This document shows positions 3,147 through 27,851 of a stretch of DNA of 33,586 bases, one piece after another. A program made the position numbers and the translations under genes. The notes beneath the pieces were generated by a model, which was not told where the DNA came from, made no database searches, and saw nothing but the letters and a program-made list of their open reading frames with translations. Source of the DNA: a virus; the IMG/VR virus record IMGVR_UViG_3300049477_000163, positions 1 to 33,586 of that record; one strand, written 5' to 3'. How positions within the stretch are numbered: position 1 is the stretch's first letter; each line of letters begins with the position of its first letter.

Positions 3147-4118
3147 TTACCAATGAGCTTGCCACGTAGAACCATCCCACGTGTAGCTTTTATTTGTTGT
3201 TGTGTCGTAATACATTTCACCAGCCTCCGTGGCCGTTGGAGCTGACGATTGCGTGGGTATTCTAATTGTTCTTGCAGAACACACAATTCTTCCGCGAGTT
3301 CCAGTTCCGCTAACGACGCCTACGCGCAAATTAATATCTCCAGTGTTACCAGTAGAAGATGCGTGAGTTTTATTTCCAGTATTTATGTCAACAAATCTAG
3401 TGGAAACGGAATCGTTATTGGCATTGTTTTGAGTAAATAATCCAACGTCAGCTCCAGTTGTAGATCCGCCAAGCGCACTGACGCCAGCATTGCCGGCTGG
3501 CGTAGTCTGTAAACCAATAGTGCCGCCGCCAACATTGGCCGTTATAAAATAACCATTAGCCCAATAAAAAACTGCACTCCCACAGTTATAAGTATTATGT
3601 GCATTTGCCGCAAAATTTGCTCCGTCAATAAATACGTTTGCAGAAGCATTTCCTATTAATACTTGGCCTGAAGTACCAGCTCTAATGAGTCCAATATCAG
3701 CAGAGTTAAATTGGTTTCTTCCCTTAAATGCTACGTCGTTTGCCACCCTAACTGATTTAGTGCCAGTCATTAAAATGTCTTGGTTTGCAGCCGTCGTAGA
3801 AGCTAGATTTGATAAATCATCTTTAGCCTTAGCAAACCAAGCGGTACCGTTATAATATTTCAAATCATTTGACGTTGTATTGTAATAAAGACCGGCTGTT
3901 ACGCCGGTCGGATCTGAAGAAATTTGTGACCCAATAACGATTGGCAAAGTTGTCGAGTCCCCTAGCCTTACTCTGTTTGAAGTATCTAGTTTTAATAGAT
4001 TTAAATCAGCAGAGTTTGCTTGGTTTCTAGCTCTAAGCGATTGATCGTTATTTAATCTTAAATCAGCGCCGTTTAAAGCGTTATCGCCTACGAATTTTGT
4101 GTCAGTTATTTGGGCCAC
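3147..4118 (-). CDS. Tail fibre-like protein, 323 aa
   Basis: The start is GTG at 4118 behind a good AGAGGT site. The N-terminus (TKFVGDNALNGADLRLNNDQSLRARNQANSADLNLLKLD) is clearly related to that of the next upstream gene (residues 6-45), and a second copy of the RN..NSAD motif recurs inside the protein near residue 134. The C-terminus (APTATEAGEMYYDTTTNKSYTWDGSTWQ) is a short module seen at the ends of many phage fibre proteins, and a similar copy (GVTAGLYYNTTSNDLKYYNGTAWF) lies near residues 73-96. The protein is therefore built of repeated small beta modules. It is likely a fibre or appendage at the tail tip that helps bind the host. The receptor cannot be told from sequence. Confidence 0.65.
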   Translation of the reverse strand: MAQITDTKFVGDNALNGADLRLNNDQSLRARNQANSADLNLLKLDTSNRVRLGDSTTLPIVIGSQISSDPTGVTAGLYYNTTSNDLKYYNGTAWFAKAKDDLSNLASTTAANQDILMTGTKSVRVANDVAFKGRNQFNSADIGLIRAGTSGQVLIGNASANVFIDGANFAANAHNTYNCGSAVFYWANGYFITANVGGGTIGLQTTPAGNAGVSALGGSTTGADVGLFTQNNANNDSVSTRFVDINTGNKTHASSTGNTGDINLRVGVVSGTGTRGRIVCSARTIRIPTQSSAPTATEAGEMYYDTTTNKSYTWDGSTWQAHW

Positions 4119-5877: not shown

Positions 5878-6648
5878 TTACTCCACAAGTCTAAAAACCA
5901 GTTTCCCAGTTTCGTAATAATAGGGCAGATCTTTTGTATAAAGCTCTTTTAATCTATACCCAGTCCCGTCACGCTCTTCTTCAGTTGATTCTAAAAATAC
6001 TGTGTAAAACGTATTTCTATCCCCACGGTCTGGCATAAACTCAACCTCTGCTTTGGTGGTTAGAAAACGCATAAAAGCCCGCGCATCAGCTATGCCAGAT
6101 AAATTAGTCTCTATTACAGAACCATTTCCTTGAGCAATGTCAGTGATGAATTTTATATTGAGCTCGAAAAATTTCTCAATACCAAATCTAACAACCTCGA
6201 CAACTCCGCTTGCAGACTTATTCACTGATGGTTGAATTGATTTTCTTAAGTCCTCTTGGTCCACATAGTCTTGAAGTAAAAACTGCGGGGTATATTGATT
6301 GCCAGTAAGTGCACCAGTGTAAGCATTGTCGCCAGTTTGATCTGCACCGGTAAATCCAATAAGCTCAAACACATCGACGCCAACATGCGTGCCTGTAGTA
6401 ATAAGCAAATCAAAATTAGCCGTAGCCTGAATCGTAAATCGTCGCTCTACGCGATCAAACGTTACGTCATAAGCTTGTGAGCCAACCGTATTCATTGCAT
6501 TTGCAACGGCGTCAGCTAATTTCTCAGGCGTGTAACTTCCGGCCTCAACCTCTGCCGATAACTCCCCAGAGCCCTCATCAAAATCTAGATAAAAGTTCTC
6601 GTTAGTTACGGCGTCCATATAGTAAAAAACTGATCTCGTATTAATCAC
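5878..6648 (-). CDS. Distal tail-like protein, 256 aa
   Basis: The GTG start at 6648 overlaps the stop of the tape-measure gene (GTGA), so translation is coupled. The protein begins MINTRSVFYYMDAVTNENFYLDFDEG, then has a helical segment (SYTPEKLADAVANAMN, about 38-53) and beta segments, including a TIQATANFDLLITTG stretch. The C-terminal part is rich in aromatic and charged residues (YTVFLESTEEERDGTGYRLKELY). No membrane segment or catalytic motif is visible. The gene directly follows the tape measure and precedes the fibre genes. In siphoviruses this slot usually holds the distal tail (Dit) or tail-tip adaptor protein. The call rests mainly on gene order. Confidence 0.5.
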   Translation of the reverse strand: MINTRSVFYYMDAVTNENFYLDFDEGSGELSAEVEAGSYTPEKLADAVANAMNTVGSQAYDVTFDRVERRFTIQATANFDLLITTGTHVGVDVFELIGFTGADQTGDNAYTGALTGNQYTPQFLLQDYVDQEDLRKSIQPSVNKSASGVVEVVRFGIEKFFELNIKFITDIAQGNGSVIETNLSGIADARAFMRFLTTKAEVEFMPDRGDRNTFYTVFLESTEEERDGTGYRLKELYTKDLPYYYETGKLVFRLVE

Positions 6649-20865: not shown

Positions 20866-21885
20866 TCATTTCGGCACCATTGCGTTTAACTTTAGTCCGG
20901 CCTTGTTCACATAAACTTTTTCTGATTTCACGCTCATTAATTTATTCGAGGATAACAAAGACCGCTTCTCTATTTTAAATATAAGCTTAAATCTTTTATC
21001 ATCAATATTGTACTCGCTAATAAACACTGGATTTGCTTGAGCGTCAGCCCAATCGAAGAATTCCTTATGATTAAATCCCCCGTCATAATCAGCGGTGCCT
21101 TGATACGGAATATCGCAGTATACGATTGAGCTTTCTTTAATCGGCACGCTCTCGTAGCTTGTGTTATAGAAATTCAACCGCTCCAACCGCTCCAACCGCT
21201 CCAACCGCTCCAACTGCTCCAACCGCTCCAACTGCTGCAACCGCTCCAACTGCTGCAACCGCTCCAACCGCTCCAACTGCTGCAACCGCCTGAAATTATC
21301 AGCCAACCCATTAGCTTTAACAATCTCCAAGTGCTCATCATTAAGATACGGCCATAGAAATTCTGGTACTTTTGTTTTTCTATAAAACTCAATTTTATTT
21401 CTTAAAAATAGCCTTTTTTGCTTAACCGAATAACCGTCATTAAACTTCTTAAGGCCCAAAGTCTTTTGAGCAAGCTCATCAAACTCGTTAAATATAATGG
21501 CATTGTGCATTGATTTTTTATAAGGCTCTATTTCTTTTGAGAATAAGTAGCCTGAACCATTATTGCCAAAAGACCATAGTATTTTAGTCATCGGATCAGT
21601 ATCCAAATTAGCAAAAAACTCTTCTCTAGAAACAAACGGTGGCTTGAACACATTGTAATTGTACTGGCCATCAATAGCGTTTTTAATTAAATCACAAATG
21701 CCAGGCCTAATTTCATTAAAGTGAAAATGCTTATAGTGACCACCGCGCCTAAGCATCATCGCGTGCGTTACAGAAAAACCGCCACCAAATAGATCATAAA
21801 ATTGGTCAGCTTTTGGGAATATGCGAATAATTTCATCACATATTTTATCTTTTGAGCCCATGTAAGGAATGCCATATTCAGCCAC
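20866..21885 (-). CDS. dam: DNA adenine methylase (D12 class), with Leu-rich repeat insert, 339 aa
   Basis: The enzyme would put methyl groups on adenine N6. SAM-binding motif I is FYDLFGGGFS (29-38), and the catalytic motif is DIPY (258-261), a known variant of DPPY. The N-terminus IPYMGSKDKICDEII is the family's first helix. Between residues 201 and 236 lies an insert of 12 triplets of the type Leu-[Glu/Gln]-[Arg/Gln], encoded by 9-bp DNA repeats. The C-terminal end (NPVFISEYNI) is normal. It starts with GTG at 21885, overlapping the ParB-domain gene. It may protect phage DNA from host restriction. Similar Leu-rich inserts are known in other phage Dam proteins, but their role is unclear. 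Confidence 0.9.
   Translation of the reverse strand: MAEYGIPYMGSKDKICDEIIRIFPKADQFYDLFGGGFSVTHAMMLRRGGHYKHFHFNEIRPGICDLIKNAIDGQYNYNVFKPPFVSREEFFANLDTDPMTKILWSFGNNGSGYLFSKEIEPYKKSMHNAIIFNEFDELAQKTLGLKKFNDGYSVKQKRLFLRNKIEFYRKTKVPEFLWPYLNDEHLEIVKANGLADNFRRLQQLERLERLQQLERLQQLERLEQLERLERLERLERLNFYNTSYESVPIKESSIVYCDIPYQGTADYDGGFNHKEFFDWADAQANPVFISEYNIDDKRFKLIFKIEKRSLLSSNKLMSVKSEKVYVNKAGLKLNAMVPK
21178..21285 (-). repeat. 9-bp tandem coding repeat array, 12 units
   Basis: On the minus strand the array is 12 units of 9 bases, mainly TTGGAGCGG (Leu-Glu-Arg), with TTGCAGCAG (Leu-Gln-Gln) and one TTGGAGCAG. The order by triplet is LQQ LER LER LQQ LER LQQ LER LEQ LER LER LER LER, followed by Leu. Because a unit is three codons, gain or loss of units would keep the frame. 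The last four units are identical, suggesting recent expansion by slippage. Confidence 0.9.
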
Positions 21886-22477
21886 GGAATATTGCCTTTG
21901 CGATCATGCCGCGCTCTGACAGCTCGTTAACCAGTGAGGTCATTTCTTCGCCATCAACGCATAGCACTTCAACTTTAAACTCTTGTGCTTTATCTAGATC
22001 TTCTTTTTCATCAAGCCCACTCATCTCTGGAGTGCTTATAACAAGATCCGGCACGCCCAATAAATCAAGATCAAACCCATTCACATCGAGCTGTAGATTC
22101 AATGCTTCGAGCTTAAACATCTCATCGTCGTGTTCGGCTAGCTCGGCCACTTTGTTATCAGCTATCATGTGAGCATACTCGGATGCCTCGTCTTCAAAAT
22201 GTTGATAATCAACGGCGCATCTATCCCAGCCTAATTTTTTAATGGCCTCTAATCTACCATGTCCAGAAACCAGAAAACCCGATCTGGACGACACGACAAT
22301 AGGCGACCTTTGGCCCTGGTAATTTATTATTTTAGAAAGCATTTGAATTTGCTGATCGCTATGGCGATTCGGGTTCTTCGGGTTAGGCACAAGCTTATGC
22401 ACATCCACCATCTCGTCAAACGCGCACTCAATCTTTTCTTTTGACGTACTCAGATCAGTCTGCTTGTCTATTTGCAT
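21878..22477 (-). CDS. ParB-like nuclease-domain protein, 199 aa
   Basis: The N-terminal domain has the ParB/sulfiredoxin pattern: VHKLVPNPKNPNRHS (26-40), IINYQGQRSPIVVSS, and the phosphate-binding GHGRLEA (72-78), followed by ADNKVAE. In phages, such domains are often fused to or next to DNA methylases, and here the methylase gene overlaps by 8 bases. It may help target or regulate methylation. A plasmid-partition role is not indicated because no ParA gene is seen. The ATG at 22477 has a good AGAGGT site. That site lies within the start of the divergent rightward gene, so the two 5' ends overlap by 14 bases. Confidence 0.8.
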   Translation of the reverse strand: MQIDKQTDLSTSKEKIECAFDEMVDVHKLVPNPKNPNRHSDQQIQMLSKIINYQGQRSPIVVSSRSGFLVSGHGRLEAIKKLGWDRCAVDYQHFEDEASEYAHMIADNKVAELAEHDDEMFKLEALNLQLDVNGFDLDLLGVPDLVISTPEMSGLDEKEDLDKAQEFKVEVLCVDGEEMTSLVNELSERGMIAKAIFRG

Positions 22478-24759: not shown

Positions 24760-26721
24760 CTAATTTAGAGTGCTCAAAAAAGCAGAGTGGTTGACCCAGA
24801 AACGCTCCGCGCCATCGGTTCTTTGATACCCTTTTGCCTTTAATGCGCGCCGCACCCTAGCACTTGTTACTCCGGCTTTTTTAGCAATATCTAAGAACAT
24901 TTCAGCAGCGGTGTCCTGCGTTATGCGCAGCATCGAGCGAGATGTTTTCTCTCTCCAAAGGTCCTCAATATACTGTTCTGCGCTCTCAGGCGTTAGGTCG
25001 TCGATTAATTTATTAACTTTTAAAAGCGTACTTTCGCTTAAGCCCATAGCCCCATGTTTCTTAAATAAACTGTAAAATTGGGCAATTAACTGTGAGCTTT
25101 TGTTCATCGGGTAATTATAATCAATCGAGTCAATAGGCAGTATTAAAAAACGCCTGTTACCGGTTGGGTCTCTAAGAAAATCATTAGGGTTTACGCTAGA
25201 TATAAAGCTTGCGGCGTTAGTTTTTTTACTCGGAGCCCTGCCGTAGCTTTCTCTAAAAAAAGAACTCGACTGAGTGAGTAAGCTTTTAAGGAACGCAATA
25301 TCAACTTTCGCCGTCTGGTCAAACTCAGGTACGTGGCAGATAAAAAGCCTTGTGACGATTTCAAGCCAGTCCTTTCTTTGGTCCGGAGCATCTATCTCTT
25401 CATAATATGGTGAGAATTTATCAAACATTGCTCGAATTAAAGTATCTTTACCAATCCCCTGCGACCCTTTTAATATTAAACACCTGTTTTGAACGCTCGA
25501 GTTTAACGAGCGCGCAAACATGTGGGTGCCCCAGTATTTAAATATTTCTGTAACTTCGTCGCTTGTAAAATAAGAGCTCTTTATTGATTTAGAAAACTCT
25601 GAGGCCCAATCTTTACCGTCATATTCTTCTATGTCGCAGAGAAATTTTAAATCACTTTTTTCGAACGAGAACCTTGCAAACTCTGATTTCACATCGTCTT
25701 TTAAAAAACCTTTTGATTTTGCGTAACTTTTAAATACGTCCTCTAATGAGTGCCCAATGACCCAGTTATTTCCAACTTTGAAAAATATTTCTTTAGACAG
25801 GATGTCTTTTCTATATTCGCCAACCGAGGTTTCAAAAAAATGATCCCAAGCCCCGGCCCCAAGGTTTTTTGGTTTTTCGTGCGCTGGTCTTGACTCAATA
25901 AACGACCGAATTCGCCTGACCCAATTAAGCGCAAAAGCAAATGCGTCGCCTTTAACGTGGTTTTTGTCTTTAAAATATGGCCCCTTTTTGTCGGCCCCAT
26001 TTTTAAATAAATCGTATTGAATTATTTTATTAGCAATTAATTCGTCATTTGTCTCGACTCTACAAAGCTCGGCAGCGTATTTAAAAATCTCGCCATGCCG
26101 ACCGCCAAGAGCATTACCTTTAGTTGCAAACGCTTCTCTAAAATCCTCAATGATTGATATGTCTAAGCTTGGGAGTGATTGAAAATCATCCATCGGGTCA
26201 CCGCATAGCCACGAGTAATGCACTTCTTTGCCGTCTTGAAACGAGTGAAACGACGGCGGGATGACTATATATCCACTTGCTTTGAAATCAAAAAGTCTGA
26301 CTTTATGCCTATCGACTGCGATGGTGTACTGCTTTGGGTCCCATTTAAAGAATACGGTCCACCCATGCTTTGCTTTTTTTGCAAGCGTCCAATCGGGCAA
26401 ATGCTTTTTAAATTCACCGTCGATTTTAGTAAACTCGATGTTGTATTTTTTCTCGGTTATTTCAACCGGCATTTTTGCGGCCTCGTATTTAAAATCAAAA
26501 TCAAAGCCTGAGATTCCAGACACTTCGCCACAGATAACTGCGATGCCCGGGCACTGACCGTAAGCCCTGACTAGTCGCTCGATATCTTCATCGGTTTGTT
26601 TTTCGGTGAGCCATTTTTTAAACGTGAACCCGTCTTGCGGCGGTTTTTTATTCTCCACTATTGGTATCACGTTAATTCCAAGGTCATGATATTTTTCTGC
26701 CCAGTCTGCAAATACGCCCAT
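24760..26721 (-). CDS. Primase-polymerase / VirE-type helicase, 653 aa
   Basis: The N-terminal ~200 residues look like a bifunctional prim-pol domain: GISGFDFDF with Asp74 and Asp76 as likely metal ligands, a later strand at 120-127 (GWTVFFKW), and SGYIVIPPSFH (149-159). The C-terminal half is a VirE/SF3-like helicase with Walker A GSQGIGKDT (419-427), a Walker B-like HVPEFDQT (463-470), SFFRESYGR (487-495) and TGNRRF (520-525). Replication initiation and fork unwinding are expected. I chose the second Met, at 26721, since AGGGGGAG lies just before it. In motif II, where His is usual before the strand, Thr122 appears (GWTVFF). The gene runs left from a structured intergenic region. Confidence 0.88.
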   Translation of the reverse strand: MGVFADWAEKYHDLGINVIPIVENKKPPQDGFTFKKWLTEKQTDEDIERLVRAYGQCPGIAVICGEVSGISGFDFDFKYEAAKMPVEITEKKYNIEFTKIDGEFKKHLPDWTLAKKAKHGWTVFFKWDPKQYTIAVDRHKVRLFDFKASGYIVIPPSFHSFQDGKEVHYSWLCGDPMDDFQSLPSLDISIIEDFREAFATKGNALGGRHGEIFKYAAELCRVETNDELIANKIIQYDLFKNGADKKGPYFKDKNHVKGDAFAFALNWVRRIRSFIESRPAHEKPKNLGAGAWDHFFETSVGEYRKDILSKEIFFKVGNNWVIGHSLEDVFKSYAKSKGFLKDDVKSEFARFSFEKSDLKFLCDIEEYDGKDWASEFSKSIKSSYFTSDEVTEIFKYWGTHMFARSLNSSVQNRCLILKGSQGIGKDTLIRAMFDKFSPYYEEIDAPDQRKDWLEIVTRLFICHVPEFDQTAKVDIAFLKSLLTQSSSFFRESYGRAPSKKTNAASFISSVNPNDFLRDPTGNRRFLILPIDSIDYNYPMNKSSQLIAQFYSLFKKHGAMGLSESTLLKVNKLIDDLTPESAEQYIEDLWREKTSRSMLRITQDTAAEMFLDIAKKAGVTSARVRRALKAKGYQRTDGAERFWVNHSAFLSTLN

Positions 26722-26754
26722 AAACTCCCCCTTCAAAGGTGTTGATAAATTATT

Positions 26755-26779
26755 GCCAGATTAATGGCTTTGGCTGCCA
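26755..26779. promoter_or_regulatory. TGGC/GCCA inverted repeats, possible operator
   Basis: GCCA at 26755, TGGC at 26765, TGGC at 26771 and GCCA at 26776 form an interrupted 14-base palindrome and a 9-base odd palindrome (TGGCTGCCA). They lie 34-58 bases upstream of the primase-helicase start and could control it. No binding protein is known. Confidence 0.3.
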
Positions 26780-26900
26780 CGTTAGTTTTTAATGTGCTTT
26801 AAAAGATTCAAGTGTTTTTGCTCTTTTTAACAAACAACGAAAAATCGAACGAGGCAATAAAAAAACTTGAGTGAACAAAGCGTTGTGACTTAAGAATCAG

Positions 26901-27030
26901 TATCAATGGGTTTTTGCTTGCTCGGCCTTACGGATACCCATCTATAAACGAGTGAAGTAAAGAGTGTTTATCCTGTTGGTTATGCCCCTGGGTGTGGACT
27001 TCCGGCCTACATCTAGGGGTTTTTTGTTTT
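26901..27030 (+). ncRNA. Structured leader or small RNA, candidate
   Basis: The region has three successive helices. TGGGT (26907-26911) pairs with ACCCA (26936-26940), within a 6-bp stem. ATAAAC (26944-26949) pairs with GTTTAT (26966-26971). Last comes the terminator stem 26985-26995/27009-27019. No gene fits it. The segment ACCCA can also pair with TGGGT at 26989-26993, inside the left terminator arm, so folding of the first helix and the terminator would be linked. The terminator loop is complementary to the ribosome region of the Sak4-like gene. I find no match to a known RNA family. The promoter is not certain. Confidence 0.5.
26985..27030 (+). terminator. Intrinsic terminator with a 13-base loop complementary to the downstream start region
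   Basis: An 11-bp stem (CCCCTGGGTGT with ACATCTAGGGG, two G-U pairs) is followed by six T, one G and four T. Only the plus direction has the T run. The loop at 26996-27008 contains CTTCCGGCC, the exact complement of GGCCGGAAG at 27136-27144. Confidence 0.8.
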
Positions 27031-27146
27031 ATAACCACTAGCAACATAGCTAAAAACAGCCAAAATAATCGTTGCAAACTCATAAAAAGCATTGCAATTA
27101 TAAACCCACAATTTAACTCTAAAAGCGCATAGGGGGGCCGGAAGCC

Positions 27147-27851
27147 ATGCCGTTACCAAAAGCAAAGACCACACGCGAGCAGAATTATTTAAAGAAAATC
27201 TACCTAATTTACGGTTTAGCAAAGGTAGGGAAAAGCACATCAATATCAAATCTAGGTGACGATGATAATAAGATATTATTTTTCGCTACCGAGGCCGGCC
27301 ACAAAGAGCTTGAAATATATAAGTGGCAAACCGAGGACGGCTCTGACCCCACGACGTGGGAGCAGTTTAAGCAGTGCGTGCTTGAAATGACGAAACAAAA
27401 TGAATTTAAATGCTTGGCCATCGATACGGCAGACAATCTGTATGATTGGTGCGCGAAATACGTAAACAAAAAGCACGAGCTCGAACATGAATCAGACGCA
27501 TCCTTTGGCAAGGGATACAAATTTATTAAAGATGAGTTCATGGCGCCGATTAACTATTTATCGCAAAAAGGTTACGGTATTATTTTCGTCAGTCACTCTA
27601 AGATTCAAGACCTAGAGCTTGGCAACAGGAAAATTAGCTACACAGACTCAACACTAAACAATACGGCTAAAAAAATAATCCACGGTCTTTGCGATTACAT
27701 TCTTCATTTTTATGTTGATCTCGGTGGCAAGCGCATGATTCGCACCAAGGGCACCGAAGCCGTGAACGCTGGCGACAGATCTGGGCGACTTCCTGAGGTG
27801 ATGCCGCTGGACGCTGAGTCATTAAAACAAGAGCTTAAAAAAACAAACTAA
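27147..27851 (+). CDS. Sak4-like RecA-fold ATPase (recombination), 234 aa
   Basis: Walker A is GLAKVGKST (23-31) and the Walker B-like strand is CLAIDTADN (89-97). The segments KKIYLIYG, LFFATEAGHKELEIY and GYGIIFVSHSK follow the order of phage AAA_24/Sak4 proteins. These RecA-related proteins promote strand annealing together with an SSB. Length is normal. The ATG at 27147 has an AGGGGGG site at 27131-27137, which overlaps the sequence complementary to the terminator loop upstream. The next gene encodes an SSB-like protein, in line with the known Sak4/SSB pairing. Confidence 0.82.
   Translation: MPLPKAKTTREQNYLKKIYLIYGLAKVGKSTSISNLGDDDNKILFFATEAGHKELEIYKWQTEDGSDPTTWEQFKQCVLEMTKQNEFKCLAIDTADNLYDWCAKYVNKKHELEHESDASFGKGYKFIKDEFMAPINYLSQKGYGIIFVSHSKIQDLELGNRKISYTDSTLNNTAKKIIHGLCDYILHFYVDLGGKRMIRTKGTEAVNAGDRSGRLPEVMPLDAESLKQELKKTN

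Follow-up and report, generated by a model that had tools for sequence, protein, structure and literature searches.

The question raised by this locus is whether a short phage RNA controls the translational start of a recombination gene. A few model phages are known to encode antisense RNAs that target start sites. The window (the whole stretch of DNA analyzed, a 33.6-kb virus record for which no DNA similarity to phage records was found) has a 410-base gap that separates two divergent operons, with a primase/helicase gene on the − strand and a Sak4-like gene on the + strand. This divergent-gap context, set by the primase/helicase gene, recurs in relatives described below. To the left of the gap lie genes for the major head protein, portal, terminase, and tape measure, and no integrase was recognized among the window proteins scanned. 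DNA methyltransferase-like and ParB-like/methyltransferase genes adjoin the terminase genes (20866-22477, − strand). The Sak4-like start codon was backed by alignment with the close relative L002, and the primase/helicase gene probably starts at the ATG at 26721. We propose the Sak4-like gene, the first of its operon, as the candidate repressed gene. The features are collected in Table 1.

Table 1. Positions of the genes, the pairing segments, and the proposed RNA (window coordinates unless another record is named)
Feature	Position	Strand	Basis
Primase/helicase gene, Prim-Pol and VapE-like	24760-26736	−	Pfam and PHROGs; alignment with L002, L038, L040
Probable RNA 5′ part, including a long imperfect hairpin	26860-26983	+	Predicted fold
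Intrinsic-terminator-like hairpin with U6 tail, proposed RNA 3′ end	26984-27025	+	Predicted fold
Second pairing segment GGTGTGG, hairpin 5′ arm	26991-26997	+	RNAduplex; available once the hairpin opens
Anti-start element CTTCCGGCC, terminator loop	26999-27007	+	Exact complement of 27136-27144; L002 counterpart TTCCAGCC
Target GGCCGGAAG-CC-ATG-CC, Shine-Dalgarno end through the Sak4-like start codon	27136-27151	+	RNAduplex
Sak4-like single-strand annealing/recombinase gene, 234 amino acids	27147-27851	+	PHROG 124 Sak4-like, E value of 7E-35; Pfam AAA_24, E value of 1E-33
Reverse SAS copy (Cluster K phages)	L142:34871-34883 (Anaya); L143:33635-33647 (Angelica); also L146, L147		

A terminator-like hairpin loop complementary to the Sak4-like start

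The initial annotation had reported a match between a terminator loop and the sequence just before ATG 27147. This match is real: CTTCCGGCC is the exact complement of GGCCGGAAG, and the two form the longest perfect inverted repeat within the gap. The loop itself had been placed at 26996-27008, and the element does lie there, but the free hairpin loop is only about ACTTCCGG, with the final CC closing the stem. Likewise, the nine-base match was exact as described but its extent had been understated. With A26998 bulged, RNAduplex pairs GGTGTGG with CCATGCC (27145-27151), giving a predicted duplex of 16 pairs that includes the start codon. When 417 possible starts in the window (ORFs of at least 50 codons) were scored, the Sak4-like start was the best partner at −33.3 kcal/mol, the second best scoring −20.4 and the mean being −10.0 (standard deviation, 3.6) kcal/mol.

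The match had also been called unlikely by chance. Taken alone and post hoc, the 9-mer is moderate evidence only (p of about 0.013 against shuffled RNA). It occurs three times in the window versus 0.08 times expected from dinucleotide shuffles, and because the third copy lies inside a coding region, the 9-mer by itself does not settle the matter. This third copy of GGCCGGAAG (6536-6544, − strand) is within coding sequence of the structural region, away from starts, and is probably a coincidence.

Folded alone, the hairpin at 26984-27020 has 14 pairs and a predicted energy of −23.2 kcal/mol and runs into TTTTTT starting at 27020. Trans-acting phage sRNAs in general end at an intrinsic terminator, and a predicted hairpin followed by U6 is present here; similar predicted terminator hairpins occur in L002, L046, L072, L137, and L140. 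The surrounding region (26860-27030) folds at −53.7 kcal/mol, below all 200 shuffles (z of −3.5). A second long imperfect hairpin (26899-26981) lies directly upstream of the terminator and is part of a 171-nt strongly folding region. A sigma-70 promoter scan gave no match in the gap at the scan threshold and weak candidates only in the relatives. Rfam gave no match at gathering in the window or in eight related loci, and at E values of up to 10 nothing credible in 26700-27250, C4 not being among the matches.

The match is kept through sequence change in relatives

Co-variation of loop and start in related phages had been suggested as a check on the pairing, and the outcome was positive in L002, L046, L072, L065, and L137. 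The one close relative from IMG/VR, L002, has the same divergent layout, with the Sak4 protein 82% and the primase 42% identical to those of the window, and its gap gives no useful alignment with the window gap. In its terminator, GTCCCCGTGCCGTCGTTCCAGCCACGCTACGGGGACTTTT, the segment TTCCAGCC lies in the loop, and the exact complement of this segment, GGCTGGAA (8 bp), is found in the start region of its Sak4 gene, with a spacer between the two elements of 121 nt versus 128 nt in the window. Between the two phages one G-C pair is changed to A-U, both sides having changed in compensation.

A motif scan and profile search yielded the further relatives L046, L072, L092, L065, L137, L139, and L140, which are 42 to 59% identical. 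In L046, GTTGCTCCTTC within the terminator loop matches GAAGGAGCAAC at the start over 11 bp. In L065, TGTTCATCCT lies in the loop of a 16-pair hairpin and matches AGGATGAACA over 10 bp, with a small gene between hairpin and Sak4. The L072 pair, TATGTAGTCC and GGACTACATA (10 bp), has its first member just upstream of the terminator, and other genes intervene before Sak4; the L137 pair, CCTTCATGT and ACATGAAGG, matches over 9 bp, or 12 with one G-U. All four matches are kept with unrelated sequences. In L072, L137, and L140 the element lies upstream of the terminator hairpin rather than in its loop. For the most part, the element was predicted to be less paired than the RNA overall.

No clear match of the RNA to the phage's own first start was found in L092 or L038, L140 had only the ACCTCC/GGAGGT core against its first start (p of 0.34), and the operonic relative L139 had no match. 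A collection search for the exact loop/start pair returned 34 contigs, which lie outside the set of relatives compared. A first search of genome contigs found no relative, and a second, by protein motif, found distant Sak4 genes only, which were used as controls.

Two side observations were made on these loci. In the divergent gap of the L065 phage (L138, about positions 3510-3660), two more U-tailed hairpins precede the one that carries the anti-start element, and several small RNAs may be encoded there. There were also unexpected matches across phages, one of 10 bp between the L046 terminator hairpin and the L065 Sak4 start and one of 9 bp between the window hairpin and the L038 first-gene start, which may be due to chance, relics of shared ancestry, or cross-regulation.

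Statistical evaluation

For nine divergent loci, including the three failures (L092, L140, and L038), every RNA was paired with every start. Own pairs scored better than swapped pairs, with a permutation p of 3E-5 for energy over the whole gap, 6E-5 for energy with a 75-nt RNA, and 2.3E-5 for the Watson-Crick run with an 85-nt RNA. Against dinucleotide-shuffled RNA, p ranged from 0.0003 to 0.013 in six loci, with no signal in the three failures, and the Fisher combination over all nine loci was 2.7E-8. Since the terminator of each locus was picked by the analyst, these p values are somewhat optimistic, and the whole-gap energies are confounded by the GC content of the other phages' starts, the Watson-Crick runs and dinucleotide shuffles being the cleaner measures. 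Compared with random starts, energies were individually significant only in the window and L046. When up to 700 bases upstream of 63 Sak4 genes were scored, the top five scores all came from the window's subfamily, and the matches of about 50 distant Sak4 genes were at chance level.

Possible additional targets

In several relatives the RNA also fits the starts of other genes. The L002 loop fits ORF 7346 with 14 pairs over the start codon. In L046, AAGGAGCAAC, two bases before ATG 2818, matches the loop as well, and the start of the divergent primase gene comes second in the energy ranking. The L072 element matches the start of the first small gene over 8 bp and the primase GTG over 7 bp; it also matches ORF 1616, which lies downstream of the primase on the opposite strand and gives 15 contiguous pairs with G-U included. 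In L140, GAGGTTAGT before ATG 6403 gives a 9-bp match. The start of an SSB-like gene in the same phage (L140:4832, AAGGAGGTCAACATG) also fits the ACCTCC loop of the L140 RNA. Only one target was evident in the window. Since starts on the opposite strand could be reached only in trans, a trans-acting antisense RNA is the best reading of these matches.

Proposed mechanism and alternative explanations

We suggest, with a probability of about 0.72 judged from sequence comparison and predicted folding, that a short terminated RNA represses translation of the Sak4-like gene in trans by loop-first pairing over its start. The gap would encode a short untranslated RNA ending at the predicted terminator hairpin, the loop of which (ACTTCCGGCC) would be the first part to touch the Sak4-like mRNA, at its ribosome-binding site. 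Pairing could then spread along the opening 5′ arm and across the start codon to reach the 16 pairs. The resulting duplex would keep the 30S subunit off the message, and recombinase translation would be repressed; the position of the pairing, at the start-codon region, favors such a block. In some relatives other early genes are matched by the same loop, so that one RNA may damp several replication genes together. Several observations weigh against this reading: the promoter scan of the gap was negative, three of the nine divergent loci have no clear match to the first start, the element is outside the terminator loop in L072, L137, and L140, the window has a single evident target, and the energies stand out individually only in the window and L046.

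Two modes had been offered in the initial annotation, a separate small RNA and a helix formed within a read-through transcript, of which the former fits the data better and the latter less well. Under such cis control, a read-through leader would fold so that its loop segment hides the start in the same molecule, in the manner of an attenuator or riboswitch. This helix can indeed dominate nested folds of the read-through RNA, with probabilities of 0.998 in L137 and of 0.98 to 0.99 in L072; in the window the value varied with the 3′ end chosen (0.94, 0.20, or 0.82). However, in this folding, which models nested pairs and no kissing pairs, its probability was 0 in L002 and L065 and near 0 in L046 except with the longest 3′ end. 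The small RNA is preferred because of this result in L002 and L065, because genes intervene between hairpin and Sak4 in L065 and L072, and because the L072 element matches starts of the opposite-strand operon. The strong terminator between the two parts likewise argues for separate molecules, and we regard cis control as unlikely.

The remaining explanations would not involve RNA pairing. Co-varying inverted repeats in divergent gaps could in general represent operator pairs, that is, inverted copies of the binding site of a phage regulator that change together as the specificity of the protein changes, and L072 does have several copies. Yet the copies are in complement orientation, and direct copies exceed chance length only in L072 and, weakly, in L065. 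In every case a terminator hairpin contains or adjoins one copy, the other copy lies on the ribosome-binding site at the start codon, and G-U pairs lengthen several of the matches. Because direct copies are not generally enriched, and because of the hairpin location, we consider a DNA operator pair very unlikely. Chance complementarity between a terminator loop and a GC-rich start region has in its favor the repeated 9-mer of the window and its modest post hoc p value, but it is contradicted by co-variation in several diverged relatives (p of about 2E-5 to 3E-8) and appears to us the least credible account.

Significance and a possible extension to Cluster K phages

The persistence of the pairing in uncultivated phages, despite sequence change in both partners, is strong evidence of its use. 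This suggests that some phages control their replication and recombination modules with an RNA of easily reset specificity, possibly as a basis for immunity or copy control. It also supplies a search rule for more cases, namely a terminator-associated loop complementary to nearby start sites.

In the Cluster K mycobacteriophages, many early genes share a 13-bp start-associated sequence (SAS) that overlies their ribosome-binding sites, and K1 phages also carry one reverse copy that is not at a gene start (PMC3203893, PMC11373665). Under the anti-start model, this reverse copy is expected to form a hairpin loop. In Anaya, Angelica, Amelie, and Validus, the apical loop of a long hairpin consists exactly of this lone reverse copy (GGCCTCCTATCCC). 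The hairpin region is conserved, lies at the right end, was matched in 177 records, and, in the records listed, often lacks annotation. Pixie, MacnCheese, SirPhilip, LeMond, and Nibb have not retained the loop, and a search of 8000-56707 of AnnaSerena gave no such loop for its SAS-like motif. We treat the link between SAS and hairpin loop as a lead rather than a result; it nevertheless yields a testable idea for these motifs. More speculatively, and with considerable doubt, a general phage strategy can be imagined in which the RNA encoded between two divergent replication operons has an anti-start loop, and the early genes that this loop matches, on both strands, form a translational regulon, loop and starts evolving as lock and key. 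If true, the same logic would explain the K1-type 13-bp SAS, unexplained since 2011.

Comparison with known RNA systems

The SAS of Cluster K are a shared sequence at early-gene starts, and an anti-SAS RNA is a prediction only. Among phage antisense RNAs, the C4 RNA of P1 and P7 is encoded on the strand of its target and upstream of it, and lambda OOP and P22 sar are read from the strand opposite their targets. Unlike OOP and sar, the hairpin, U-tract, and target of the window are all on the + strand, in two separate complementary segments. Both OOP and sar are small phage RNAs that lower the translation or stability of the mRNA of a phage regulator (PMC12197685). The CI RNA of satellite phage P4 pairs with complementary leader sequences and in this way curbs replication genes of P4 itself (PMC4825925); it causes premature transcription termination at seqA/seqC, whereas the window RNA is proposed to cover a start codon. 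In Listeria monocytogenes, a terminator loop of the sRNA LhrC binds the ribosome-binding site of its target, as demonstrated by compensating mutations (PMC4132741), but the LhrC sRNAs belong to the host and not to a phage, carry three repeated C-rich sites, and target a host virulence adhesin.

The statement in the initial annotation that no system of this form had been described was too strong, as C4 also pairs around a ribosome-binding site, that of the ant mRNA, probably by loops, and blocks its translation (PMC12197685). C4 acts in trans (PMC8546580), and the title of a paper cited in that source describes it as a processed 77-base RNA. The proposed window RNA is not classed as a C4 member because it has no Rfam match and its target is not an antirepressor. 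In place of ant, the proposed target in the window is the Sak4-like gene, and the candidate targets here are replication and recombination genes; the element, unlike that of C4, lies in or next to a terminator hairpin. Like C4, the proposed window RNA is complementary to a phage ribosome-binding site, with 16 predicted pairs over 27136-27151 and with the match co-varying in relatives.
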